Below are positions 1 through 12,262 of a stretch of 39,878 nucleotides of DNA, one piece after another; the stretch's first letter is position 1, and every line of letters begins with the position of its first letter. The stretch comes from Candidatus Aegiribacteria sp. GTDB lineage: Bacteria > Fermentibacterota > Fermentibacteria > Fermentibacterales > JCC-6. Location: assembly GCA_023138735.1 (NCBI GenBank), contig JAGLOY010000063.1, positions 1 through 39,878 on the forward strand, given 5' to 3'. A program made the position numbers and the translations under genes. Below the pieces are notes generated by a model. That model did no database searches, had not been told where the DNA came from, and saw only the letters and a list, made by a program, of their open reading frames with translations.

Positions 1-2589
1 GAGAAGAAAGCTTATCAGAACCTTATTCGGGATATGGATAAAAAGATATCATTCAATTTCTTCACCGATGAAGGTTTATTGCCGAATTACGCATTTCCAG
101 AAGCTGGTGTACAGCTGCGATCCATTATTTTCCGAAAACCGGAGAAGAAAGAGAACGAGAAGGGGCAGTGGGAAACCTTTACTTACGAATACGAACGCGC
201 TTCTTCCAGTGCCATCCGTGAGCTGGTTCCTGCCAGCACATTCTATGCAGGCGGCAGAAAAGTTACAATTGACCAAGTGGATATGAAGCTCTCCGATCTT
301 GAGGACTGGAGATTCTGCGACGCCTGTTCTCACATGGAGCTTGCGGACTCAAGTGATACGAAGACAGCCTGTCCAGTATGCGGGAGCACTCTCTGGATGG
401 ATGCCGGTCAGAAAAGACAGATGGTTCGGCTGCGGCAGGTGTACGCTTCAACCAGTGACCGTGCAAGCAGAATCGGTGACGACAAGGATGAGAGAACTCC
501 GCTTTTCTTCGACAGGCAGATGCTGGTGGATTTTAAGGGAGGGGATGTTACTGCCGCATGGAAGCTTGATACAGAGGATGTTCCTTTCGGCTTCGAGTTT
601 CTTCGGAAGGTTACGTTCAGAGACATTAACTTCGGTGAAAGGAGCCCGTTTGGAGAGCAGGTATCTATTGCGGGGAAAGAAATCCCCAGATCCGGATTCA
701 AGCTGTGCAGATCCTGCGGGAAAGTGCAGGATAAGAACGGTAAGGTCAAGCACGCGCTGACCTGTACCGCCCGGAAGAAGGAAGACGATTCCAACTTCCT
801 AACTACTCTGTATCTATATCGGGATTTTACTTCGGAAGCTGCTCGGTTCCTGCTGCCGGTTTCTTCTCTTGTTGCCTCTGAGAAGATGATTAATTCATTC
901 ATAGCTGCGCTTCAGCTCGGGCTTCGGCTCAGGTACGGCGGGGCTGTTGATCATCTGAGCATAACCACTGCCGATGAACCGGTGCCTGATTCGGAATTCC
1001 GGAAGAAATATCTTGTCCTGTATGACACAGTTCCCGGAGGTACAGGATACCTGAAGGACCTTATGAAGGAACCATCGAGACTGATGGAAGTCCTTCAGCT
1101 GTCGCTTGACAGGATGAAATCATGCAAGTGTACTCAGGATCCAGATAAGGATGGATGTTACAGTTGCCTTTATGCCTACAGACAGAGTTACGATATGCAG
1201 AACATTTCCAGGGATGAAGCTATAAGATTCCTGTCAGAAATACTTGTAGGAGAAAGCAAACTAAAACAGGTACGGTCTCTTCGGGAAATAAGCATCAATT
1301 CCCTGCTGGAGAGTGAGCTTGAGGAGCTGTTCATCGAAACGCTGTCTGAAACGAAGGAGGGTGAAGAGTTCTTCAGCCTTCGCAAGCAGATAGTGAACGG
1401 CAGTCCCGGCTACTATCTCAAGGCTGGATCCATGGCATGGCTCGTACAGCCGCAGGTTTCTCTTGGTTCGCATGAAGGTGTTTCGGTACCCTCGAGGGCT
1501 GATTTCGTGTTCAGGCCTGCAAAGCCTTCACCCGGTGTTAAACCTGTTGTCATTTTCACGGATGGATACTCTTATCACAGAGAGCGTATCGGTCTTGATA
1601 TGGCACAGAGAACGGCTATCATCAGGAGTGGTGAGTACAGAGTCTGGTCGCTTTCGTGGAACGACATCTCCCGAAACCAGGAAAACTGGTTTGTGGATTT
1701 CCTTTCTGTGCAAATGGCTCGGAATTCAGGATTGCTGGGAAGTCTGCTTGATGGATTCGGAATCAGGGAGATGGATTCACTCAGAAGCATGGACAGTTTT
1801 AAATGGTTCACAAAATATCTGGCTGAGCCTGATGAGGAATCCTGGAGTAAATACGCTTACGTACAGAGCCTTGTGCGAATGGATAACTCGATAGGTGCTG
1901 ATGAAAATCGGATTTTCCATTGGAAGGAGAATCTCTTAAAGTCTGCCGGAAGTATCGGAAGATCTATTGCTGATGAGGTAGACGGACCTGCGCAGTACGG
2001 AATGAAAGAAGAAGGTTCGTTAAGGATATTCCTGGCAGCTGATGATGAAAGTATCAGATCACGCATGCTTGCCGAAATGAAGGTACTCCTTCTTCTTGAG
2101 GACAGAATCATGTCAGGGAGTTTTCAGGAGGGATGGAATGGATACCTGCGGATGCTTAACCTGTTTCAATTCCTTCCGGGATGTACAGCTGTTTCAGCAA
2201 AGGGTGTTGAACAGGATATCTCAGTTGAAGCGACTTCTGACAGAGCTGCAGTTGCTGGAGCTGCTGCTTCGGTATCCCCCGAATGGGAAGAAGCAATGGA
2301 GCTTGCGGATCCCAAACTGAAACATCTCATGGATCGAATCCAGGAATCCGGTATCGATGCACCCGAGACAGGCTGGGAAATAACAGGTTCCGATGGAGCA
2401 GTTGCCGGTCAGGCTGAGCTTGCCTGGGAGAACTCGAAAGTTGCACTTATCATTGAATCACAAGATAAGTCTGCTGAAGAATTCCAGCGTCAGGGATGGA
2501 GAGTATTCTCACCAGAGCAGGCAGAGGAGAGGCCGGTGGCTTTCATCTCAGCTCTCCGCTCGGCACACGAAGGGGGCGGTCAGTCATGA
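1..2589 (+). CDS. Large DUF1998 helicase, C-terminal part (5' end outside window)
   Basis: The reading frame is open to the left edge, so the annotated protein lacks its N-terminus (probably the DEAD/DEAH helicase core); 862 residues are visible. Counting from the first visible codon, a Cys-rich stretch starts at C106 (CxxC...CPVC), another at C236, and the DUF1998 signature CKCTQDPDKDGCYSC lies near 375-389. Near 519-556 is a Vsr/DUF559-like nuclease fold: FTDGYSYH, then D..QR, then RSGEYRVWSLSWNDI. The extreme C-terminus (AELAWENSK...GWRVF) looks like a second, degenerate copy of that fold. DUF1998 helicases of this kind include DruE of Druantia and relatives of DISARM DrmB. The stop overlaps the next start by 4 nt, so the two proteins are likely coupled. 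Family call is strong; the exact defence type cannot be settled without the upstream genes. Confidence 0.85.
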   Translation, partial: EKKAYQNLIRDMDKKISFNFFTDEGLLPNYAFPEAGVQLRSIIFRKPEKKENEKGQWETFTYEYERASSSAIRELVPASTFYAGGRKVTIDQVDMKLSDLEDWRFCDACSHMELADSSDTKTACPVCGSTLWMDAGQKRQMVRLRQVYASTSDRASRIGDDKDERTPLFFDRQMLVDFKGGDVTAAWKLDTEDVPFGFEFLRKVTFRDINFGERSPFGEQVSIAGKEIPRSGFKLCRSCGKVQDKNGKVKHALTCTARKKEDDSNFLTTLYLYRDFTSEAARFLLPVSSLVASEKMINSFIAALQLGLRLRYGGAVDHLSITTADEPVPDSEFRKKYLVLYDTVPGGTGYLKDLMKEPSRLMEVLQLSLDRMKSCKCTQDPDKDGCYSCLYAYRQSYDMQNISRDEAIRFLSEILVGESKLKQVRSLREISINSLLESELEELFIETLSETKEGEEFFSLRKQIVNGSPGYYLKAGSMAWLVQPQVSLGSHEGVSVPSRADFVFRPAKPSPGVKPVVIFTDGYSYHRERIGLDMAQRTAIIRSGEYRVWSLSWNDISRNQENWFVDFLSVQMARNSGLLGSLLDGFGIREMDSLRSMDSFKWFTKYLAEPDEESWSKYAYVQSLVRMDNSIGADENRIFHWKENLLKSAGSIGRSIADEVDGPAQYGMKEEGSLRIFLAADDESIRSRMLAEMKVLLLLEDRIMSGSFQEGWNGYLRMLNLFQFLPGCTAVSAKGVEQDISVEATSDRAAVAGAAASVSPEWEEAMELADPKLKHLMDRIQESGIDAPETGWEITGSDGAVAGQAELAWENSKVALIIESQDKSAEEFQRQGWRVFSPEQAEERPVAFISALRSAHEGGGQS

Positions 2590-4691
2590 GTGAAATAGTA
2601 GTCGCACTGGGAAGTGATTTTCTGTCTGCGTATTCCAGAATACCGAAGAAGCAGCAGGGGAAAGTAAGGGAGTTCATCAGGAAGTTTAAACTGAATCCAA
2701 AATCTTCTGGTATTAATTACGAGCGTATACATGATTCTCATGACAGTCATATCTGGTCCGTTCGCATTGATCAGGCTTACCGCGGAATAGTTCACAGACC
2801 TGATAGCGGGAGTACTTTCATCCTTCTATGGGTCGATCATCATGATGAAGCTTACGACTGGGCGAGGAGACGCAAAGTTGTGATTCACCCGGAAACGGGG
2901 AGTCTTCAGGTTCTGGACGTTGAAGCTTCTGAAATGCCAGTTGAAATTTCTTCTGTTGAAAAAGAACTTTGCCTGTTCAGAAAACTGAAGGACAGACATC
3001 TCAGGCAGTTCGGTGTGCCGGAGATTTTGATTCCCAAAGTCAGTTCTCTTGTATCTGAGGAAGAACTTGAAGATATGTCAGCATCTCTGCCCGAAGAAGC
3101 GATGGAATGCCTGCAGATGTTCAATGAAGGTTTTGATCTGGATGAGATACTAAATGACGTAGCGTGTGATGGGAAAATAGATACTGATGATTATGGTTCA
3201 GCTCTTGAAAGGGACGGTTCGAAGCGTTTTTTCTGGGTAGTTGATGATGAGCTTGAGCTTGCGGAGATGCTTGCTGCTCCGCTTGAGAAATGGCGGGTAT
3301 TCCTGCACCCGTCGCAGAGAAGACTTGTTGAGAGGGACTGGAACGGTCCCGTGCGAGTACTGGGGGGCGCTGGAACAGGCAAGACAGTTGTTGCGATGCA
3401 CAGGGCAAAATGGCTGGCTGAAAACTCCTTTACCGGCCCGAACGATAGAATCCTGTTCACAACTTTCACTAGGAATCTCGCGGGAGACATCAGGGAGAAT
3501 CTCAGGAAGATCACCCCAGCAGATGTTATGAAGAGAATCGAAGTGGTTAACCTTGATGAGTGGGTCTGGAATTTCCTGAAGAGGAGCAAGTTCGGCTGCC
3601 GGATAGCATACGGAAAAGTAACGAAGGATGTATGGGAAAAGGCGCTGTCTCTTTCTCCTGAAGGGTATCAGGAATCTTTCTTCAGGGAAGAATGGGATAG
3701 AGTCATTCAACCTCAGGGAATTGATACTCTCAGGGAATACCTCACATGCTCTCGAACAGGCAGAGGAACGAGGCTGGCAAGAAGGCAGCGGAAAGATATC
3801 TGGCAGGTATTTGAGGAGTACAGAAGGCTTCTTGATGAGGCAGGTCTTCGAGAACCGGCGGATGCCATGCGGGATGTGCGGCATATCCTTGAATCAAAGC
3901 CGGGTATTCTTCCATATCGTGCAGTTGTCGTTGATGAAGCACAGGACATGGGTCCTCAGGAATTCAAGCTGATCCGGCAGATAGTACCCGAAGCAGGTAA
4001 TGATATTTTCATAGTTGGAGACGCTCACCAGAGGATATATGGGAAACGAGTTGTTCTGAGCAGAGCAGGCATAAACATACGAGGTCGAGGAAGAAAACTC
4101 AGGATCAACTACAGAACAACTGAGGAGAACAGGAATTGGGCTGTAAGGTTAATTAATGGACTTAGTTTCGATGATCTTGATGGAGGGATTGATGCTCAGG
4201 AGGGCTACAGATCTCTCGTGCATGGAGTGTCTCCTGAAATACATGCGTTTGAATCGTTCGATGAAGAGATCGAGTTTATAGTGAGCAGACTTGTTCCCAT
4301 GCTTGCCAGTCCCGGGCAGATGAGCAGTGTCTGCATCGCAGCCAGAACTAATTCACTCTTGAAGCAGTACGCTGATGAACTCGCTTCGCGCGGGATAGCG
4401 ACATGTTTTGTGAAGCGGAATCAGGAAGAGGATAGAAGTACTCCGGGGGTTCGACTGGCAACCATGCACAGAGTAAAGGGTCTTGAGTTTGATACAATGA
4501 TAGTTGCCGGTGCGAATGAAGGAGTTGTTCCACTTCCAACTGCTGTATTGGGCAGTGATGATATCACCCGGCGCGAAGGTGAAAAATCCGAGAAAGCACT
4601 GCTATATGTAGCAGCAACGAGAGCCAGAAAGCATGTGATCATAACTGGCTTAATACCATTGAGCAGGTTTCTTAAATATCAAGGTAATTGA
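2586..4691 (+). CDS. RelE-like domain fused to UvrD/Rep-type superfamily 1 helicase
   Basis: The start is ATG 2586, in an ATGA overlap with the upstream helicase stop and behind GGGGGCGG; the frame is open further upstream but lacks a better start. The protein has 701 residues. Residues 1-100 resemble RelE/ParE toxins (DFLSAYSRIPKKQQGKV..., GINYERIHD, SVRIDQAYRGIV, LLWVDHHDEAYDWA). The rest is an SF1 helicase: Walker A GGAGTGKT near 260-267, VVVDEAQD near 447-454, IVGDAHQRIYG (III), INYRTTEENR (IV), RLATMHRVKGLEFD (V) and VAATRARKH (VI, near 675). SF1 helicases of this type unwind or translocate on DNA; the RelE-like fold may bind RNA or ribosomes, or may only be a structural module. Pairing with the DUF1998 helicase argues for a two-helicase defence or repair module. 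Confidence 0.9.
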   Translation: MSEIVVALGSDFLSAYSRIPKKQQGKVREFIRKFKLNPKSSGINYERIHDSHDSHIWSVRIDQAYRGIVHRPDSGSTFILLWVDHHDEAYDWARRRKVVIHPETGSLQVLDVEASEMPVEISSVEKELCLFRKLKDRHLRQFGVPEILIPKVSSLVSEEELEDMSASLPEEAMECLQMFNEGFDLDEILNDVACDGKIDTDDYGSALERDGSKRFFWVVDDELELAEMLAAPLEKWRVFLHPSQRRLVERDWNGPVRVLGGAGTGKTVVAMHRAKWLAENSFTGPNDRILFTTFTRNLAGDIRENLRKITPADVMKRIEVVNLDEWVWNFLKRSKFGCRIAYGKVTKDVWEKALSLSPEGYQESFFREEWDRVIQPQGIDTLREYLTCSRTGRGTRLARRQRKDIWQVFEEYRRLLDEAGLREPADAMRDVRHILESKPGILPYRAVVVDEAQDMGPQEFKLIRQIVPEAGNDIFIVGDAHQRIYGKRVVLSRAGINIRGRGRKLRINYRTTEENRNWAVRLINGLSFDDLDGGIDAQEGYRSLVHGVSPEIHAFESFDEEIEFIVSRLVPMLASPGQMSSVCIAARTNSLLKQYADELASRGIATCFVKRNQEEDRSTPGVRLATMHRVKGLEFDTMIVAGANEGVVPLPTAVLGSDDITRREGEKSEKALLYVAATRARKHVIITGLIPLSRFLKYQGN

Positions 4692-4790
4692 TTGCGATTA
4701 GGAGGTAGAGTAGTGAATAGAATTTTCGAACCTCGCGGTTTCTTCAGTATAGCGGATCAAACGGTAGTTCTTATCTGAGGAGGGGATAGG

Positions 4791-5441
4791 ATGATAAACT
4801 GGGTGAATATCCTGACATCTGTTCTTTCGGGAAGTGTTGCAGCAGGTTTCGCAGTATGGCTCATTAAGAACATAGTCCAGGAGCGGATAAAACAGTCTAT
4901 TGAGAACGAGTACAAAGTGAATCTCGAACATATCAAGGCAAATCTTAAAGTCAGGTCGGATTATGAAGCTGGGATTCTAAGCAGTCATATTGAGAAATAT
5001 TGGGATTTAGGTGAAATAATCAATACGATTACCCATCAATCACTTCAGTTGCTCTCATGGGCTATCAGTACATATCAAATGGAGCTAAGGAGTGGGAAGA
5101 CTGTTGAGGAAAGTAATAAAACTGTAAGTATCAGTCTAAATCAAAAAGCCATGCCTATAATAGAAACTGCAATGAATCTGAAGAAGTACTATGTATTTCT
5201 TCCATCAGAGGTGATCGAAAAACTCAAGCACTTCGAGAGCATAGTCTGGTCAATACTAAAAGAAGGCAATTTTGAAGAACCCAAAGAACTTTTAATATCT
5301 TCAGATGATTTGCTTTGTTCTATCAGACTAACCACTGCACAGTTAATTAGCAATGAAATCGAATTATCGGATGTACTAAGAAATCTCCCTGAAGGCGGTT
5401 TTATGCCTGATTACATTAAACATGCAGTTGAAAAGAGCTAA
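4791..5441 (+). CDS. Membrane-anchored coiled-coil protein, unknown function
   Basis: This 216-residue protein starts at an ATG behind GAGGAGGGGATAGG. One N-terminal membrane segment (about residues 8-28, ILTSVLSGSVAAGFAVWLI) is followed by a charged, probably helical cytoplasmic region (QERIKQSIENEYKVNLEHIKA...) and a helical domain. I do not recognise a family. Small single-span proteins with a long helical tail are common beside defence genes. It lies 100 nt after the helicase pair on the same strand and may be its accessory. The 3' end overlaps by 3 nt the end of the convergent HNH relic. Confidence 0.75.
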   Translation: MINWVNILTSVLSGSVAAGFAVWLIKNIVQERIKQSIENEYKVNLEHIKANLKVRSDYEAGILSSHIEKYWDLGEIINTITHQSLQLLSWAISTYQMELRSGKTVEESNKTVSISLNQKAMPIIETAMNLKKYYVFLPSEVIEKLKHFESIVWSILKEGNFEEPKELLISSDDLLCSIRLTTAQLISNEIELSDVLRNLPEGGFMPDYIKHAVEKS

Positions 5442-5955
5442 CTGCTATATTGAATTGTACTGATCAATCCAGTGAGGTCATCGAGTGGTGTGTTTGAGCT
5501 GCGTTGAAGGGGATGAATCACAGTCCCATGGAAACGTATGAGCCATTCCTTGAAGCCTACGTTGCCTTGAGCAATCTCTGAGACTATCAGCCTTCTCTCT
5601 GTATCCAGGGAGAAAGCACCCTTGGCGAAAAGTTTGTTGTGTAGGGAGCAGAGGGCAAGGTCGTTGAATTCCTTGTCAGGGCCACCCGCCTGGTGCCACT
5701 TGATATGTGCGGCTTCCAGACCGATGGGGGTGTTTCACAATCGTACATTAAAGCCGCAAACAAGACACCTGTATTCGTAAGCTCTCAATACCCTCTCTCT
5801 GAAGTGAGGGGCACGGTTTCTGCGACCTGCATATAGCTGGTCAATCGGATGTGTAGAAGCTTCCATATCCAGGCCTACAGCTTGCAGGATATCGGAATAA
5901 AGAGTAGAAGGGAAGTTGTCACTTGCTATTTGTTTTCCCGATGCTGGAGCAAATT
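5438..5955 (-). pseudogene. HNH endonuclease relic (in-frame TGA, N-terminus missing)
   Basis: Read on the - strand, one frame from 5955 to the TAG at 5438-5440 gives a typical HNH endonuclease C-terminal half: HFRERVLRAYEYRCLVCGFNVRL, a stop, then NTPIGLEAAHIKWHQAGGPD, NDLALCSLHNKLFAKGAF and EWLIRFHG. The frame is interrupted only by TGA at 5735-5737, where relatives have a glycine, so a single GGA-to-TGA change would explain it. An upstream in-frame TAA (about 5953-5955) and lack of a start show the N-terminal half is gone. HNH proteins of this type are restriction-like DNases and occur in defence islands. Recoding of the TGA is conceivable but less likely than decay, given the missing N-terminus. 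Confidence 0.8.
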
Positions 5956-5967
5956 AATGTGCAATCA

Positions 5968-5996
5968 TTGACATGTATATGCTATTCAGCTATGTA
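5968..5996 (+). promoter_or_regulatory. Possible sigma70-type promoter
   Basis: TTGACA at 5968-5973, a 17-nt spacer and TATGTA at 5991-5996 lie in the gap before the small exported-protein gene at 6115. The -35 box is perfect and the -10 box matches 4 of 6. Predicted by eye only. Apart from this, 5956-6114 holds no visible gene. Confidence 0.35.
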
Positions 5997-6114
5997 AATT
6001 GGGGGTAAAAGTAATCATATGGGGCCGGTAGGATACTAACCATAGAGCGCCATGCCATCACAACAGAGGTACCAGCAATTGTAATCTCCTTCCGGACCGA
6101 TAGGTTGGGGGGAG

Positions 6115-6483
6115 ATGATGCATACTATCTGCACGAGCTTCCTGTTCACTCTCTGTACATTTACATTCAATGCTGCTCTTCAGAAGCAACCTAACAGTAC
6201 TCAATTAACCGACCAAATCACATTAATGGAACCAACCCATCGTGTCCTTCCGCTAAAAGTGAAGCACACAGATTTCTCGACTGAGAACATTGCCTCGATC
6301 ATGTCTTTGGTTCGGGATGGTTCTGGGAGTAACTCCGACAAACAATATCCTAAACATGTATTTCAGGAGTTTGGGACCTGGACAGATAGCCTGAAAGTGA
6401 CTACCAAGACCGGTTTGGTATTCATGGTTGTCAACGAGCAATACATCACAGGTGTAAAATGCATGCGAGAATATGAAACTTGA
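6115..6483 (+). CDS. Small probably exported protein, unknown
   Basis: 122 residues. The start ATG lies directly after TTGGGGGGAG, a plausible but very close ribosome-binding site; a second ATG follows immediately (MM). The first 20 residues (ICTSFLFTLCTFTFNAALQ) resemble a signal peptide. The remainder has no motif I recognise. It sits 42 nt before the membrane protein gene on the same strand and could be co-transcribed. Coding status rests on the ribosome-binding site and signal-like N-terminus, so moderate confidence. Confidence 0.5.
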   Translation: MMHTICTSFLFTLCTFTFNAALQKQPNSTQLTDQITLMEPTHRVLPLKVKHTDFSTENIASIMSLVRDGSGSNSDKQYPKHVFQEFGTWTDSLKVTTKTGLVFMVVNEQYITGVKCMREYET

Positions 6484-6539
6484 GATGAATGAAATACACT
6501 GTTCTATGAAGTGGTGCTAACTGATTGAGAGGGTCTGAA

Positions 6540-7436
6540 ATGGATAAATTGAAATTCACTGTCTACGATATATTCGGATATGTAATTCCAGGTCTAGTCC
6601 TAATCTGGTTTGCTAAAGTATTCGAACGCATGGTCAGTTGTGCGACACTCAGCGCAAGTATTCTTGATTATCAAATTACACTCGCAGATACCCTTATATT
6701 TCTACCCCTTGCATATGTCATTGGACATCTGTTACACGCAGTAACAAAAGAGTTGAATATTCCATCAAAGGATTCCCTGTTACAATATCTTCAGAATTGG
6801 AGTAATAAAAATCAATCTGATTTACATAGGAATTGTAAAGATGACAAAGCAAATGAGCAAAATAAACATGATAATCGGAAACAGTATTTTCCCCCCGACT
6901 TGTCACTCCTTAAGAAATGCATACAGAATGTTTTTGAAATTGATACTAACTCAACAGAAAATCTGACGAAGATTGAACTCGCCGATAAGTACTACTGGGC
7001 ATGTAATGTATATGTTCTTAAACATCATCCTGATTCGATCACAGAGACCTTCTATGGACTGTTTGGTTTTTACAGATCAATGTTCATAGTTGCATTTCTG
7101 ATTGGTGTTGTGTTTCTGTTATATACTCTCATACCTATAATTAGTAGTCTAGTATTATGGAAGTTCTTGTTATCCAGTTCGGATTTTGTTATTGGTATTA
7201 TTGCTCTTCTTGCTTTACTCTCATCTCAGTTTTTTAGATCCCGAATTAAAGATTTCAATGATTATCACTATGCTGCAGTGTTCACAGATTTCATTGTTAT
7301 TGCTCTTGAAAAAACTCCAAAAGAGGAAGAGAAGCAGAAGTATGAAGAGCGGTTTACGATCTGCGAAAGACTTATAAGATGTCTGAGTAGTATTTATTCA
7401 GGCATCAAGAAGGAATCAGCAAAGTCTGAGGAATGA
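6540..7436 (+). CDS. Four-helix membrane protein, unknown function
   Basis: ATG 6540 is chosen over an in-frame TTG at 6525 because GAGAGGG sits at the right distance; 298 residues. Hydrophobic segments lie near residues 12-30 (YVIPGLVLIWFAKVF), 45-65 (DTLIFLPLAYVIGHLL), 180-208 and 212-232, flanking a central soluble domain of about 110 residues. The N-terminal KFTVYDIFGYVIPG resembles membrane proteins often found next to phage-defence genes, but I cannot name a family. It lies between the helicase module and the phospholipase-D-like gene, 48 nt before the latter, so a membrane role in the same module is possible (inference). Confidence 0.75.
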   Translation: MDKLKFTVYDIFGYVIPGLVLIWFAKVFERMVSCATLSASILDYQITLADTLIFLPLAYVIGHLLHAVTKELNIPSKDSLLQYLQNWSNKNQSDLHRNCKDDKANEQNKHDNRKQYFPPDLSLLKKCIQNVFEIDTNSTENLTKIELADKYYWACNVYVLKHHPDSITETFYGLFGFYRSMFIVAFLIGVVFLLYTLIPIISSLVLWKFLLSSSDFVIGIIALLALLSSQFFRSRIKDFNDYHYAAVFTDFIVIALEKTPKEEEKQKYEERFTICERLIRCLSSIYSGIKKESAKSEE

Positions 7437-7484
7437 TAGAGAAACAAAGCACTTCTGAAATCAAACATTAGGAGGGGGAATATT

Positions 7485-9140
7485 ATGCGCGTCATGAAAA
7501 CGAATGGAGGCTTGAAAGTACACGCTATCGCCGGAACCTATGTTGTCATGCTTGGCTTCGATCTCGCTGAAGCGAATTGCGACGGGCTTCTCGGCTTTTC
7601 CATTCATCGCACCGATCACACGGAGAATGAGGCTTATTACCTATCGGGATCAAAAGCGTTTGCTGAAACCGATCCCGGGTTTCCCTCCGGTTCGAAATAC
7701 TCTACAAGGGACCATCCGATTCAGAGCTTTCAGTGGGCCGATTATTCTGCAAAGCCAGGCCATGATTATACGTACACGATCACCGCACTTAAGGGTACTC
7801 CGGCTGATCTTGAACCCTACGCGGAGACGGTAATCGATATCACAACTGAAAGTCCCGAATCTGGAGATCATGATATTTATTTCAATTGCGGGCTAGCGGC
7901 ATCGCAGGCATATGTTCGTCGTTTTGGTGACAGGGTGCCCGAGGATGTACCAAACCGAAAGGCATTCGAATGGTTGTCGCGTGGTTTGAACGAGGCACTT
8001 GAGGACTTCATTCGGTCGAGCAAACCTGGCCAGCACGCCCTCCGCATTGCAGCATACGAATTCAACTATGACGTATTCCTCAAAGTTGTGAAGGAAGTTC
8101 TGGATAAGGGCGTTAACATCCAGATAGTATATGACGCTCGAAAAGACAACCCGAAAATCCGCAATCAACAGGCGGTAGCCGCAGCCGGTCTTGCGAATGT
8201 AAGCCGTGAGCGGACAATACCGAAATCCTATATCTCCCATAACAAGTTCATTATAAAACTTCAGGATGGACAGCCATATTCGGTCTGGACAGGAGGCACG
8301 AATTTTTCTGAAGGAGGAATTTACGGTCACTCCAACGTCGCTCACGTTATTGAAGAACAAGCGATTGCCACAAAATTTCTTGATTACTGGACTGCACTTT
8401 GGTCCGATCCCAAGAGTACACCGCTCAAAGACAGCGTTGAGATGATTTCACCACTACCTGTTTCACCTCCTGTCGGAACGACTGTTCTCTTCAGCCCCCG
8501 CAAGAATCTTGACGCACTCGACTGGTATGCAAAGCTCGCAATGAACGCTAATGATGGACTTTTCATGACGTTCGCTTTCGGAATGAACGATATCTTCAAG
8601 AATGTATACGAAAATGGATGCGCACCGTTCCGGCTTGCACTGATGGAGAAGAAAACACGCTCTATGAAAGCCGGTCCAGCACGGGATGCGGAGGAACGCA
8701 AGATTCAAATATTGCGGAACATGCCGGAGAATGTTTTCGCCATAGGTGATTTTATCCGCACAAACGAGATTGATGGTTGGGTAAAGGAGAAACTCACAAA
8801 TCTCAACTCGCATGTGCGATATGTACACAACAAGTTTATGCTCGTTGATCCTCTCACGGACGATCCGATCGTGGTCGCTGGTTCTGCCAACTTCAGTGAC
8901 GCCTCCACTCGACGCAACGATGAGAACATGGTGATCACTAGAGGGAACAAACGGGTCGCCGATATTTACCTTTGTGAGTTCATGAGGTTGTACAGTCACC
9001 ATGCATTCCGGGAATCCCTGAAATGGCGCGAATCAAATAATCCACCGAAAGCGTTAAGAATTGATGATTGGTGGCGAGGGTATTTCGGAATGACTCCCAG
9101 ATCAACTCGAAGGAAATATTTCGCAAGATCGCAGGTGTAG
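7485..9140 (+). CDS. Phospholipase D-like protein with two HKD motifs
   Basis: 551 residues; ATG behind AGGAGGGGGAATATT. Residues 1-115 form a fibronectin-III-like beta domain with no signal peptide. Two HKD-type motifs follow: H252-N-K254 (SHNKFIIK) with WTGGTNFSEGG, and H448-N-K450 (VHNKFMLVD) with GSANFSDASTRRNDENMV, the usual two-lobe arrangement of one active site. The family includes phospholipases and nucleases; the family alone does not tell which, but a cytoplasmic location near helicases and an HNH relic makes a nuclease or membrane-damaging defence effector plausible. DISARM uses a PLD protein (DrmC), but this one is much longer and carries the extra N-terminal domain. Confidence 0.88.
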   Translation: MRVMKTNGGLKVHAIAGTYVVMLGFDLAEANCDGLLGFSIHRTDHTENEAYYLSGSKAFAETDPGFPSGSKYSTRDHPIQSFQWADYSAKPGHDYTYTITALKGTPADLEPYAETVIDITTESPESGDHDIYFNCGLAASQAYVRRFGDRVPEDVPNRKAFEWLSRGLNEALEDFIRSSKPGQHALRIAAYEFNYDVFLKVVKEVLDKGVNIQIVYDARKDNPKIRNQQAVAAAGLANVSRERTIPKSYISHNKFIIKLQDGQPYSVWTGGTNFSEGGIYGHSNVAHVIEEQAIATKFLDYWTALWSDPKSTPLKDSVEMISPLPVSPPVGTTVLFSPRKNLDALDWYAKLAMNANDGLFMTFAFGMNDIFKNVYENGCAPFRLALMEKKTRSMKAGPARDAEERKIQILRNMPENVFAIGDFIRTNEIDGWVKEKLTNLNSHVRYVHNKFMLVDPLTDDPIVVAGSANFSDASTRRNDENMVITRGNKRVADIYLCEFMRLYSHHAFRESLKWRESNNPPKALRIDDWWRGYFGMTPRSTRRKYFARSQV

Positions 9141-9218
9141 GAGTTTCAACATACCTTTTGGGTAATGCAATGCAAATGCTGATCTGATTGACTATCAATT
9201 CTCTGTACTCCAATTCTG

Positions 9219-10181
9219 TTAAGGAACAGAGCTTGGCCAGGTATCTGAATCGGTATTATTTGTCAGTCTTTGTTGATCGCTTCCATCCAGATTCATGCTG
9301 AATATTTCCTGTTTCGCGTTTATCAGGTTCCCAGGAACATCTGAAGCCTGAGTTGAAACAAATAGTCTTGAATCATCATCAGAGAAATCTATACCGCTTA
9401 TATTTACATCTGCGGGATAATCCAGGTCAATCATATTCAGGATTTCAATACTGGTGGCACTTGTGAATCGCGCAACATGAACTTGGTCATCAAACCCTAT
9501 ACCGAGAGAAACCCGAAATGCCAGATATCGACTATCATGAGACACAACCGGTATAGTTTCGGATTGGTTGGGAGTATTGGTGAGTTGGACTTCTGGCCGG
9601 TCATCCCAGATGTACTTGATGAAAAGGTCTCGATCATGATTGTCATCCCTGTCATATCTCGAGAATATGATATGTTTATCATCAATGGAATCAAGAGACT
9701 CATCATCCTGGTTCGTCCCAGGCGATGTGATCTGTGTTAGATTGCTACCGTCCAGATCTATCATGTAAATAGATGAATGCAACTGAGATGCAGGAGCAGT
9801 GAACAGGATGAACCATCCTCCTTCACCCCTGCTCCATCTTGGACAACCAGCATCAAATGGCACTCCTGGGATCACAGTAACATTATTACCGTCTAAATCC
9901 ATTGTATAGATATTATTACCTCCACTTAAGAAGACAATTCTCTTGCCGTCGTGACGCACATCCGGTGCATAATCCCATCTGTTTGGATCTGATATATTCT
10001 CAATATCCGATCCATCTGTATCCATCTTAAATATCTGGCTATTATTGAGAGTTGTATCAGCTGATATTTGCCAATGGGTATACACTACTTTCTTGCACGA
10101 GGAATTAAGAAGAAAGGAGATAATCACCAGCATAGTACAACTAATTAACCTAGTATACTTATATGTATGTAATGTAAGCAT
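9219..10181 (-). CDS. TolB-like beta-propeller lipoprotein
   Basis: ATG 10181 is preferred over GTG 10187 because AAGGAGG then lies 6 nt upstream; 320 residues. An N-terminal hydrophobic segment ends in a lipobox-like FLLNSSC, so it is probably a lipoprotein. The body has repeated PD40-type blades: QIFKMDTDGSDIENIS, NIYTMDLDGNNVTVI, SIYMIDLDGSNLTQIT, EIFSMNLDGSDQQRLT, each followed by a stretch like PDVRHDGKRIVFLS. These blades are typical of TolB-related periplasmic or surface proteins. A stand-alone gene: the left neighbour converges and the right neighbour ends 198 nt away. Confidence 0.88.
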   Translation of the reverse strand: MLTLHTYKYTRLISCTMLVIISFLLNSSCKKVVYTHWQISADTTLNNSQIFKMDTDGSDIENISDPNRWDYAPDVRHDGKRIVFLSGGNNIYTMDLDGNNVTVIPGVPFDAGCPRWSRGEGGWFILFTAPASQLHSSIYMIDLDGSNLTQITSPGTNQDDESLDSIDDKHIIFSRYDRDDNHDRDLFIKYIWDDRPEVQLTNTPNQSETIPVVSHDSRYLAFRVSLGIGFDDQVHVARFTSATSIEILNMIDLDYPADVNISGIDFSDDDSRLFVSTQASDVPGNLINAKQEIFSMNLDGSDQQRLTNNTDSDTWPSSVP

Positions 10182-10378
10182 TTGCACCCTCCTTTGTGAT
10201 TACTATCGTGGAGAATAACTCCTCTCTTGCATAAGTAACGAATCTGAGGATTCAATCTCCCTGAATTTAAGCATAAGCATAGCTTCCGCTAATTAGGTAT
10301 CCCATAGAGTTCCATTTAATGCTGAAGTGATATCTGCAAGTACAAGAGTCATAACAGGATTTGGGACTCAATACTGAC

Positions 10379-12262
10379 TTATCGGAGTTGTCCCTGCTTG
10401 AATATTCTGCACCTCCTTTTTAGTGGGTTTCTGTGTCCTCTTATCATGCCCAGCACATACCTTCCACCCAGCCACAGCCCGAGGGAGATTGTAAGCAGGC
10501 CTATGATCAACCTGAAATAGATCCTCACAACCGGGAGGAAGTTTATCAGGTCGGCAAAGATCATGACCAGAAGAAGCCAGGGCATGAGCATGAGCAGTCG
10601 GAAATCGATTTTCGCCTGTTTCCTTGCCTTCGTCGAATAATCAGGCTTGGGAATCTTCTCGATTTTTTTCAGGCGATATGAATACCGTTTATCGAAGACC
10701 ATCTCGAAGATGTCTTTCATAACCTTTCTATAGGAGAAGTACCCGGTATGGCAGGCGCCTGGATTTGGAAAACCCTGAGTACAGGCTACGCAGACGTTAT
10801 CTACGGTAATATCTGGAATTCTGAAATTCAGAACCGATTCAATGGAGCCACTTATGATATCTCCAACATCGTAGTAGTTAACCCAGTGAATCTCCTGTCC
10901 TGCTGAGGATGCGAAGGGGGGATCGGTAATCTTTCCCCGAATGTCCTCAAGCAGCTCATCCACTCTGGCATATTTACCCATGTCTCCTCCGAAGAAGTAA
11001 GCTATCTTGTCAATCGGGCTTCCAAGGGTCACGAAGTGGTCGAATTTCGAAAGGATTTTGGAGTAACTAGCCTTGTCTGCACCTCGCAGTTTAAGCATCC
11101 GTGAATACTCCTGCATGGAACTGAAGGCGATTGATGTGCCCAGGCTATGAGCAATGATAACTACTCGCTTGCATTTTTCATTTTCAACCACGTGCCTGAG
11201 CATATCTATGCCGCAGTTGAGTATCTGCTCTCTTGTCTTGTATCTTGTGTTTGTCTCTTCGTACGTACCCCAGAACTGAATGTCACCGACGTACTTTCGA
11301 AGGAAGTATCGCATATAGAACAGAAGGAATATGCCAGCGCCTATTAATATCCCGTTGATCAGGTCGTATGTGCGGAGATCGAGTGAGAACTTGATGCCCA
11401 GGGAACCCTCTACCGCTTCAATAATGCTCGAACTTAGACCAGGAAATCGGAGGATGACACTCCAGATGACAGCGGCCGCTAGAAGGAAGAGGAACAGGAA
11501 CAGAGTAAGAAGTTTGAAAATATTCCACAACTGCATCCTATCGAACGTTTTCTTCCATTTTTCCGCCGCCTCTATAAGGTTATTAATATGCTGTACATTG
11601 TAGTTATACAGGAAAGCCTTGAACTTCCTGAAAGAACCTCTGGGATACTTCATTCTCGCTTCTGATTTGGAGAACTCTGAATAGGCTTCCTCAAGCAGGT
11701 AAGCTTCCTGTTCGTATATCCCGCCATCTTCTTCGTTATGATCTTCTTTCTCTTCTTCTTTCTCTTCTTCTTTTTCTTTTTCTTTTTCGGTACTGATGAG
11801 TGTGCTCAAAGCCATCTTGTGAATGACCGGTCGGGTTCTCCATAAGCATACAATCCAGGCTTTCACCGTCTGGAAAGCGCACTTTCCAAGCCAGAGAAGA
11901 ACCTTGCCCGTCGGCACTTCCTCGGATGCAAGTGGTGCCCAATAAACTTCGTAGAATCTGTAAGAATCCTTTCGGTCTGATTGCCCGTCCTGCCTGTGCA
12001 GCTGCGTATCGACGAATGATACTGATTCTTCCTCGCCAACCCTTGATGTTTCTTCGCAGATGCCGTTGACCATGAATTCAGTATGATCGGTGCCGGTAAC
12101 AGGATTATTCTCCCTATTTAAGATGCAGCACGTCTCCAGGGAGTCGATAAGCCTGCCAGTTTCCTCGAAACGGCGCTGATTGCCTATTCCGTGGAAGTAG
12201 ATTACAGCAGTGTAACCCTCTTCCGCTTCAAGAACCCTCTGATCCTCCGATTGAACTTTCAT
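10379..12262 (-). CDS. Membrane alpha/beta-hydrolase with Glu/Lys tract
   Basis: 627 residues from ATG 12262; the ribosome-binding site (GGGGTGA) is weak. N-terminal VIYFHGIGNQRRFEETGR resembles the HG oxyanion motif of alpha/beta hydrolases, and VVIIAHSLGTSIAFS carries a nucleophile-elbow Ser373, as in lipases and esterases. A near-pure Glu/Lys tract lies near residues 157-175. Membrane segments occur near 247-270 and 300-318, between the two halves of the fold, and two more near the C-terminus (LLMLMPWLLLVMIFADLINF...). No signal peptide, so the catalytic part is probably cytoplasmic and membrane-bound. Substrate unknown; a lipid substrate would fit. It borders the putative defence region but faces the other way. 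Confidence 0.75.
   Translation of the reverse strand: MKVQSEDQRVLEAEEGYTAVIYFHGIGNQRRFEETGRLIDSLETCCILNRENNPVTGTDHTEFMVNGICEETSRVGEEESVSFVDTQLHRQDGQSDRKDSYRFYEVYWAPLASEEVPTGKVLLWLGKCAFQTVKAWIVCLWRTRPVIHKMALSTLISTEKEKEKEEEKEEEKEDHNEEDGGIYEQEAYLLEEAYSEFSKSEARMKYPRGSFRKFKAFLYNYNVQHINNLIEAAEKWKKTFDRMQLWNIFKLLTLFLFLFLLAAAVIWSVILRFPGLSSSIIEAVEGSLGIKFSLDLRTYDLINGILIGAGIFLLFYMRYFLRKYVGDIQFWGTYEETNTRYKTREQILNCGIDMLRHVVENEKCKRVVIIAHSLGTSIAFSSMQEYSRMLKLRGADKASYSKILSKFDHFVTLGSPIDKIAYFFGGDMGKYARVDELLEDIRGKITDPPFASSAGQEIHWVNYYDVGDIISGSIESVLNFRIPDITVDNVCVACTQGFPNPGACHTGYFSYRKVMKDIFEMVFDKRYSYRLKKIEKIPKPDYSTKARKQAKIDFRLLMLMPWLLLVMIFADLINFLPVVRIYFRLIIGLLTISLGLWLGGRYVLGMIRGHRNPLKRRCRIFKQGQLR

Follow-up and report, generated by a model that had tools for sequence, protein, structure and literature searches.

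Does the overlapping pair of helicase genes at the left edge of this Candidatus Fermentibacterota contig belong to an undescribed antiviral system, to a variant of a familiar one or to something that has already been explained? The window, meaning the whole 39,878-nucleotide stretch analysed in this study (G000:C153:1-39878), begins at the first base of its contig. Its first open reading frame (ORF1, 1-2589, 862 amino acids) is open from that base, runs to a TGA at 2587-2589 and has no start within the contig, because the contig begins inside the gene. The second (ORF2) starts at 2586, so that the DUF1998 gene and the SF1 helicase gene share the 4-nt ATGA overlap that had been read from the letters at 2586-2589 and is indeed there. 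The original prediction took the pair for a candidate defence module and possibly a variant or new system. Its first part stands, the genes being orthologues of E. coli ARMADA II genes with experimentally demonstrated anti-phage activity; its second part falls, since the pair belongs to ARMADA Type II, which a 2025 study named and tested (PMC12458937). The window start almost certainly holds the 3′ half of an operon of ARMADA Type II (armA-armB-armC-armD), with the final part of armC and all of armD (Table 1), and the pair is a further representative of that type, not a new system. A system to which specialists gave a name only in 2025 had in this way been singled out by an independent reading of raw sequence.

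ARMADA Type II was first described by Bell et al. in 2025, with E. coli NCTC 12900 and ATCC 8739 among its carriers (PMC12458937). ArmA is a BrxHII/RapA-like helicase, ArmB a PglX-like methyltransferase, ArmC a YprA helicase with a C-terminal Vsr nuclease and ArmD a RelE domain fused to a GajB-like UvrD helicase; in E. coli, armABCD blocks phage replication without cell killing or growth arrest, a direct and non-abortive mode of defence for which all four genes are required (PMC12458937). We treated the literature match as a lead and put it to homology, profile, tree and synteny tests, with the E. coli operon of L106 (NZ_CP010121.1) as the reference. This operon has every residue mutated in the published work (ArmA K136/D236, ArmB G605/N971, ArmC K110/D234 and ArmD K266/D454; N971 of ArmB falls in NPPW) and sits in a Zorya II-Druantia III-ARMADA array as described there (PMC12458937), while its armC is present in 521 of 5426 complete E. 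coli genomes.

Table 1 Coordinates of the arm genes and domains in the window, and of inserted genes in related loci.
Feature	Position	Strand	Basis
armC, 3′ part	1..2589	+	36% identity to E. coli ArmC, ArmC-profile score, tree; cut by contig start
MZB/DUF1998 Zn-binding domain	904..1170	+	Pfam PF09369: 47.8 bits in protein, 53.2 bits in genome search
Vsr-type PD-(D/E)xK nuclease domain	1288..1695	+	51-sequence alignment; E441, D501, D521, H526, D533, R537 kept
C-terminal degenerate nuclease-like domain (residues 761-840)	2281..2520	+	PADLOC ZorE2 C-terminus match
ATGA overlap, armC stop / armD start	2586..2589	+	sequence
armD, complete, 701 aa, RelE-like domain fused to GajB/UvrD-like SF1 helicase	2586..4691	+	48% identity to E. 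coli ArmD
RelE-fold N-terminal domain of ArmD	2586..2930	+	AlphaFold2 model and Foldseek
SF1 helicase core of ArmD	3303..4688	+	Pfam UvrD-helicase and UvrD_C; alignment A1
armB-armC inserts	L030, L041, L044, L046, L054, L057, L063, L071, L081-L083, L085, L086, L095, L099		
Fermentibacterota TA-type inserts (HicB, AbiEi, AbiEii, SoFic, DUF6088)	L156 1256-3789; L157 2345-4987; L019 3952-5298; L033 2289-3889		

ORF1 aligns over its full length with residues 1249-2099 of the 2113-residue E. coli ArmC at 36% identity over 872 amino acids (E 6e-177), and ORF2 shares 48% identity with E. coli ArmD. Against an ArmC profile built on the DUF1998 half, the window protein scored 650 bits, E. coli ArmC 593 and ArmC proteins spanning the region at least 466, compared with 70-76 bits for other YprA paralogues and 37 for E. 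coli DruE III. The tree, which like the profile covers the DUF1998 half of ORF1, nested the protein within the ArmC group beside other Fermentibacterota, with an SH-aLRT of 100 at its node. The PADLOC fingerprint of DruE, ZorE2 tail and GajB is common to the window proteins and to true ArmC and ArmD. As expected of ARMADA II, armC is followed directly by armD, a RelE-GajB/UvrD fusion, and the ArmC-clade helicase carries putative Vsr active-site residues in its tail. The likeness to E. coli thus extends over gene order, the ATGA overlap (15818/15821 in L106), the domain order of both proteins, ArmD K266, the YprA clade and the Vsr-type tail, whereas the degree of sequence identity and the phylum set the window genes apart. 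Unlike in E. coli, armA, armB and the armC helicase core lie out of view, and no Zorya or Druantia III neighbour was seen in the window. The range of ARMADA II now reaches Candidatus Fermentibacterota, a little-studied phylum that is not named in the main text of the 2025 description (PMC12458937).

The visible part of ArmC corresponds to the E. coli protein from residue 1249 to its end, that is, to the OB-CON-DUF1998 canopy and the C-terminal nuclease region. A DUF1998 signature had been noted in ORF1, and Pfam recovered it at residues 302-390 under its later name, MZB, the MrfA Zn-binding domain (PF09369, E 2.4e-12). Beyond MZB, the Pfam search reached no family in ORF1, the Vsr-like nuclease region included. 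The nuclease, also proposed at the outset, is backed by a residue pattern across 51 aligned ArmC tails, in which E441...D501-F...F-T-D521-G...H526...D533 is invariant or nearly so, as is R537 (E41, D101, D121, H126, D133 and R137 in the numbering of alignment A2). These residues correspond to the active-site layout of Vsr (E, D, T/H, H, D), and the way they are ordered and spaced along the chain (E in a helix; DF; FTDG; H; D...R...G..RV...W) is that of Vsr endonucleases. At position 483 ORF1 has Q, where more than 90% of homologues in the 51-sequence alignment have E. An AlphaFold2 model of the 462-aa nuclease tail reached a pLDDT of 87; Foldseek returned no significant PDB neighbour for it, the nearest sensible one being TnsA, of the PD-(D/E)xK type, at a probability of 0.35, and a sequence-profile search of the PDB with the tail gave no match. 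Because the fold search gave no significant match, the basis for the Vsr call is the residue pattern together with the published description of ArmC, in which an active Vsr nuclease is predicted at the corresponding place and inactive EEP and Vsr domains often lie further on (PMC12458937). The extreme C terminus of ORF1 (residues 761-840) matches the C terminus of the PADLOC ZorE2 model (1.8e-12), as do residues 2021-2096 of E. coli ArmC at the equivalent place.

The second gene had been read as a RelE-UvrD fusion that lies outside Druantia and DISARM as usually described, and both statements proved right, the protein being ArmD. Pfam leaves no doubt about its UvrD part (PF00580, 1e-22; PF13361, 3e-20), while the N-terminal 115 residues adopt a RelE fold in an AlphaFold2 model (pLDDT 92) that Foldseek matched, at a probability of 1.00, to YoeB toxins and to the RelE proteins of T. 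thermophilus and M. tuberculosis; a profile search of the PDB by sequence gave weak YoeB matches for this domain. The helicase motifs are intact (GGAGTGKT with K266, DEAQD at 450-454, GDAHQ, TMHRVKGLEF and YVAATRAR), and the Walker A lysine is residue 266 both here and in E. coli ArmD, where it is essential. PADLOC assigned ORF2 to GajB and NERD+UvrD. A pair as diverged as this one helps to find the truly conserved residues, namely the Vsr set of ArmC and, in the RelE domain of ArmD, R60, R66 and WVDHHD.

The RelE-UvrD alignment, run against 84,980 species genomes, found 144 relatives, and the 80 that we surveyed are the best-scoring part of these, from about a dozen phyla, not a random sample. 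Within that set of the best 80 of 144, a scripted count found armD immediately preceded by a YprA-type gene in 69 of the 75 loci that could be assessed; one of the 69 (L100) has a DruE-like gene in place of ArmC and another locus (L043) adds a frame-split armC, which leaves the number of true ArmC cases at 69. The co-occurrence check put forward in the original prediction therefore came out in favour of the pair, which is widespread among these best relatives. The association exceeds chance, because the same order recurs across many phyla, often with the ATGA overlap, which was found in 23 surveyed loci. On the strength of that overlap, armC and armD are probably translationally coupled. The RelE-UvrD gene stands without an adjoining YprA gene in three loci (L058, L093 and L094). 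Plasmids also carry the operon: a complete armABCD-type order is present in Aulosira, in Haematobacter the order is the same except that an 849-nt gene separates armB from armC, and Tsukamurella apparently has a four-gene order, judged by gene sizes and annotation. Annotated phages yielded no relative of ArmD, and IMG/VR one.

Could the DUF1998-Vsr helicase and the RelE-UvrD protein form a new two-gene system, independent of armA and armB? We consider this highly improbable. The overlap and probable coupling of the two genes would suit it, as would the lack of armA and armB from the window's assembly and the state of two loci elsewhere in the phylum. In G023 (L155, G023:C63, 4295-6445), divergent, unrelated genes lie upstream of the armC start, and this start contains a single in-frame TAG at codon 35, which may be real, in which case armC there is perhaps decaying; in L033 (2289-3889), armD follows an AbiE-type pair and no armC is left. 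However, none of armA, armB and the armC 5′ half was found on any contig of the window's own assembly, and because that half is missing as well, a missing contig accounts for the lack of armA and armB, which is thus uninformative. The armC 5′ half must lie on such a contig, unless armC is a truncated remnant; the window arm genes could indeed be a remnant, though both reading frames are intact where visible. Sister genomes further speak against a two-gene system. Near relatives of ORF1 occur in G017 (83%; the same genus as the window), G025, G027, G030, G034 and G036, while armA was found in G008, G027, G029, G032 and G036 and armB in G027 and G029, and the E. coli system depends on the complete gene set (PMC12458937). 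A sister sequence (L019) has the Walker A motif of the YprA helicase core, ATGTGSGKT, in the half of the gene that lies outside the window. Apparent frame breaks near the armC start of G025 were dropped, as they were produced by a run of N.

An assignment to Druantia, with the DUF1998 helicase as DruE and the RelE-UvrD gene as an accessory, is scarcely credible. DruE1 is the top PADLOC model for ORF1 (3.9e-20), and a DruE1-like helicase does adjoin a RelE-UvrD gene in L100, but true E. coli ArmC gives equal PADLOC hits, so these do not discriminate, and filing the locus under Druantia by its DruE hit was rejected. Druantia Type III (DruH-DruE) and the Type I DruE share with ArmC a YprA-family helicase, a Zn-binding DUF1998 region and a C-terminal nuclease-type domain, yet they form a separate clade (37 against 650 bits on the ArmC profile for DruE III and the window) and as a rule have no RelE-UvrD partner. 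The tail of ORF1 is Vsr-type, whereas DruE III has two PLD domains, and the C terminus of E. coli DruE III gave no BLAST match to ORF1. In place of a DruE-clade helicase with DruH, DruA-D or DruM/F/G as partners, the window has an ArmC-clade protein whose visible partner is ArmD; the clade and synteny tests refute the Druantia reading unless the missing N-terminal half proves to be DruE-type. In L100 itself (1266-12103; Acidobacteria RYN_26), a protein whose start resembles an Hsp70/DnaK-type ATPase, the 1717-aa DruE1-like helicase (703 bits) and the RelE-UvrD gene stand in a row, a possible Druantia-ARMADA hybrid.

That the genes are instead a housekeeping repair pair, a MrfA/YprA-like repair helicase with a UvrD partner and no role in defence, can be dismissed almost outright: both helicases are repair-type, and MrfA of Bacillus is a repair helicase, but the distribution is patchy (an ORF1 match at E < 1e-30 in 7 of the 42 genomes of the phylum), relatives turn up on plasmids and have Zorya, Druantia, CD-NTase, GmrSD and further defence genes as neighbours, the helicase carries a fused nuclease domain, and the E. 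coli orthologue is anti-phage.

Two further systems share modules with ARMADA Type II. DISARM (DrmA and DrmB) has the OB-CON-DUF1998 module together with a YprA helicase, and both systems have BrxHII-like and PglX-like genes, but in DISARM the module is a separate protein, DrmB, whereas in ORF1 it is fused to a nuclease tail and in sister sequences it is continuous with the helicase core; no DrmA or DrmB model of PADLOC matched ORF1. GajB of Gabija has the SF1 UvrD-type core of ArmD, but ArmD has an added N-terminal RelE domain, and no GajA match was found among the neighbouring proteins scanned. An ArmD-like partner does occur in a DISARM setting in Vibrio ezurae (L042, 331-12148), where UvrD-like genes, a NERD-helicase-like gene and a RelE-UvrD gene, its product 52% identical to E. 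coli ArmD, come after DISARM-type drmA and drmB.

For ARMADA Type II as found here, the following division of labour seems the most likely. The PglX-like methyltransferase ArmB and the BrxHII/RapA-like translocase ArmA would tell self from incoming DNA, and the YprA core of ArmC would load onto single-stranded or branched phage DNA, whose strand the Vsr-type nuclease would then cut. ArmD, a UvrD-type helicase probably co-translated with ArmC, may extend or feed the unwound substrate, with its RelE domain either docking the complex or acting on RNA. The analogy for ArmC is drawn from its YprA-family cousin DruE, which has been shown to load onto 3′ single-stranded DNA and to cut long DNA (PMC13192584).

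The space between arm genes is often occupied. At the armB-armC junction, 19 of the 36 loci with the armB end visible have the two genes adjacent (≤60 nt) and 17 have 0.5-3 kb between them, and the junction looks like an insertion hotspot within the operon. The cargo seen there, in a list that includes some loci with armB out of view, comprises YhcG/DUF1016, Schlafen-AlbA, GmrSD, a CD-NTase with AGS_C, AAA ATPases (HEC-01A, AbiL-like), Abi_2/AbiD, RhuM, PIN, an M78 peptidase and DUF2971. Fermentibacterota sister genomes, unlike E. coli ARMADA II, have TA-type genes between arm genes: HicB, AbiEi/AbiEii and SoFic-type genes separate armA from armB, and armC is preceded by DUF6088 together with an AAA gene. 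Because single unrelated defence or TA cassettes occupy the armB-armC junction, and in Fermentibacterota the armA-armB junction, ARMADA II may be an operon-sized defence island guarded by its embedded toxins, with RelE-UvrD as a portable partner of several defence systems; we offer this combined view tentatively, as plausible but somewhat short of probable. Cassettes inside arm operons offer a clue, open to testing, as to how layers of defence are put together.

More distant relatives of the RelE-UvrD gene were seen in two other settings. On a Thermus oshimai plasmid (L169, 7451-16149), a 30%-identical relative, annotated as a 3′-5′ exonuclease with its annotated start downstream of the match start, lies between brxL and a RecQ-type helicase gene in a BREX-like setting, and in Rhizobium a distant relative, also at 30%, lies beside a restriction-type cluster.

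Downstream of armD, the window encodes a 216-aa protein (4791), a Csx27-like membrane protein (6525) and a PLD protein (7485). The membrane and PLD genes had been suggested as parts of the system, which did not hold up: all three proteins are without a homologue in any other armD locus fetched, none of the 41 other genomes in the phylum has a relative of the Csx27-like gene, and we rejected these genes as system members for want of recurrence at other armD loci. The Csx27-like protein (6525-7436) matches the PADLOC Csx27 model at 4e-14 and falls below the cut-off of NCBIfam CAS_Csx27; a scripted search for a CRISPR link found no exact 20-mer repeats at 40-100 nt spacing within the window. The PLD protein (7485-9140, 551 aa) has two PLD stretches (PLDc_2, 4e-21), an N-terminal part without a family assignment and no more than a weak resemblance to DrmC. 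Just downstream of armD, on the minus strand at 5441-5950, a broken reading frame resembles the end of an HNH endonuclease (RVLRAYEYRCLVCGFNVRL*NTPIGLEAAHIKWHQAGGPDKEFNDLALCSLHNKLF, with a stop inside) and is apparently a decayed, stop-interrupted HNH gene.
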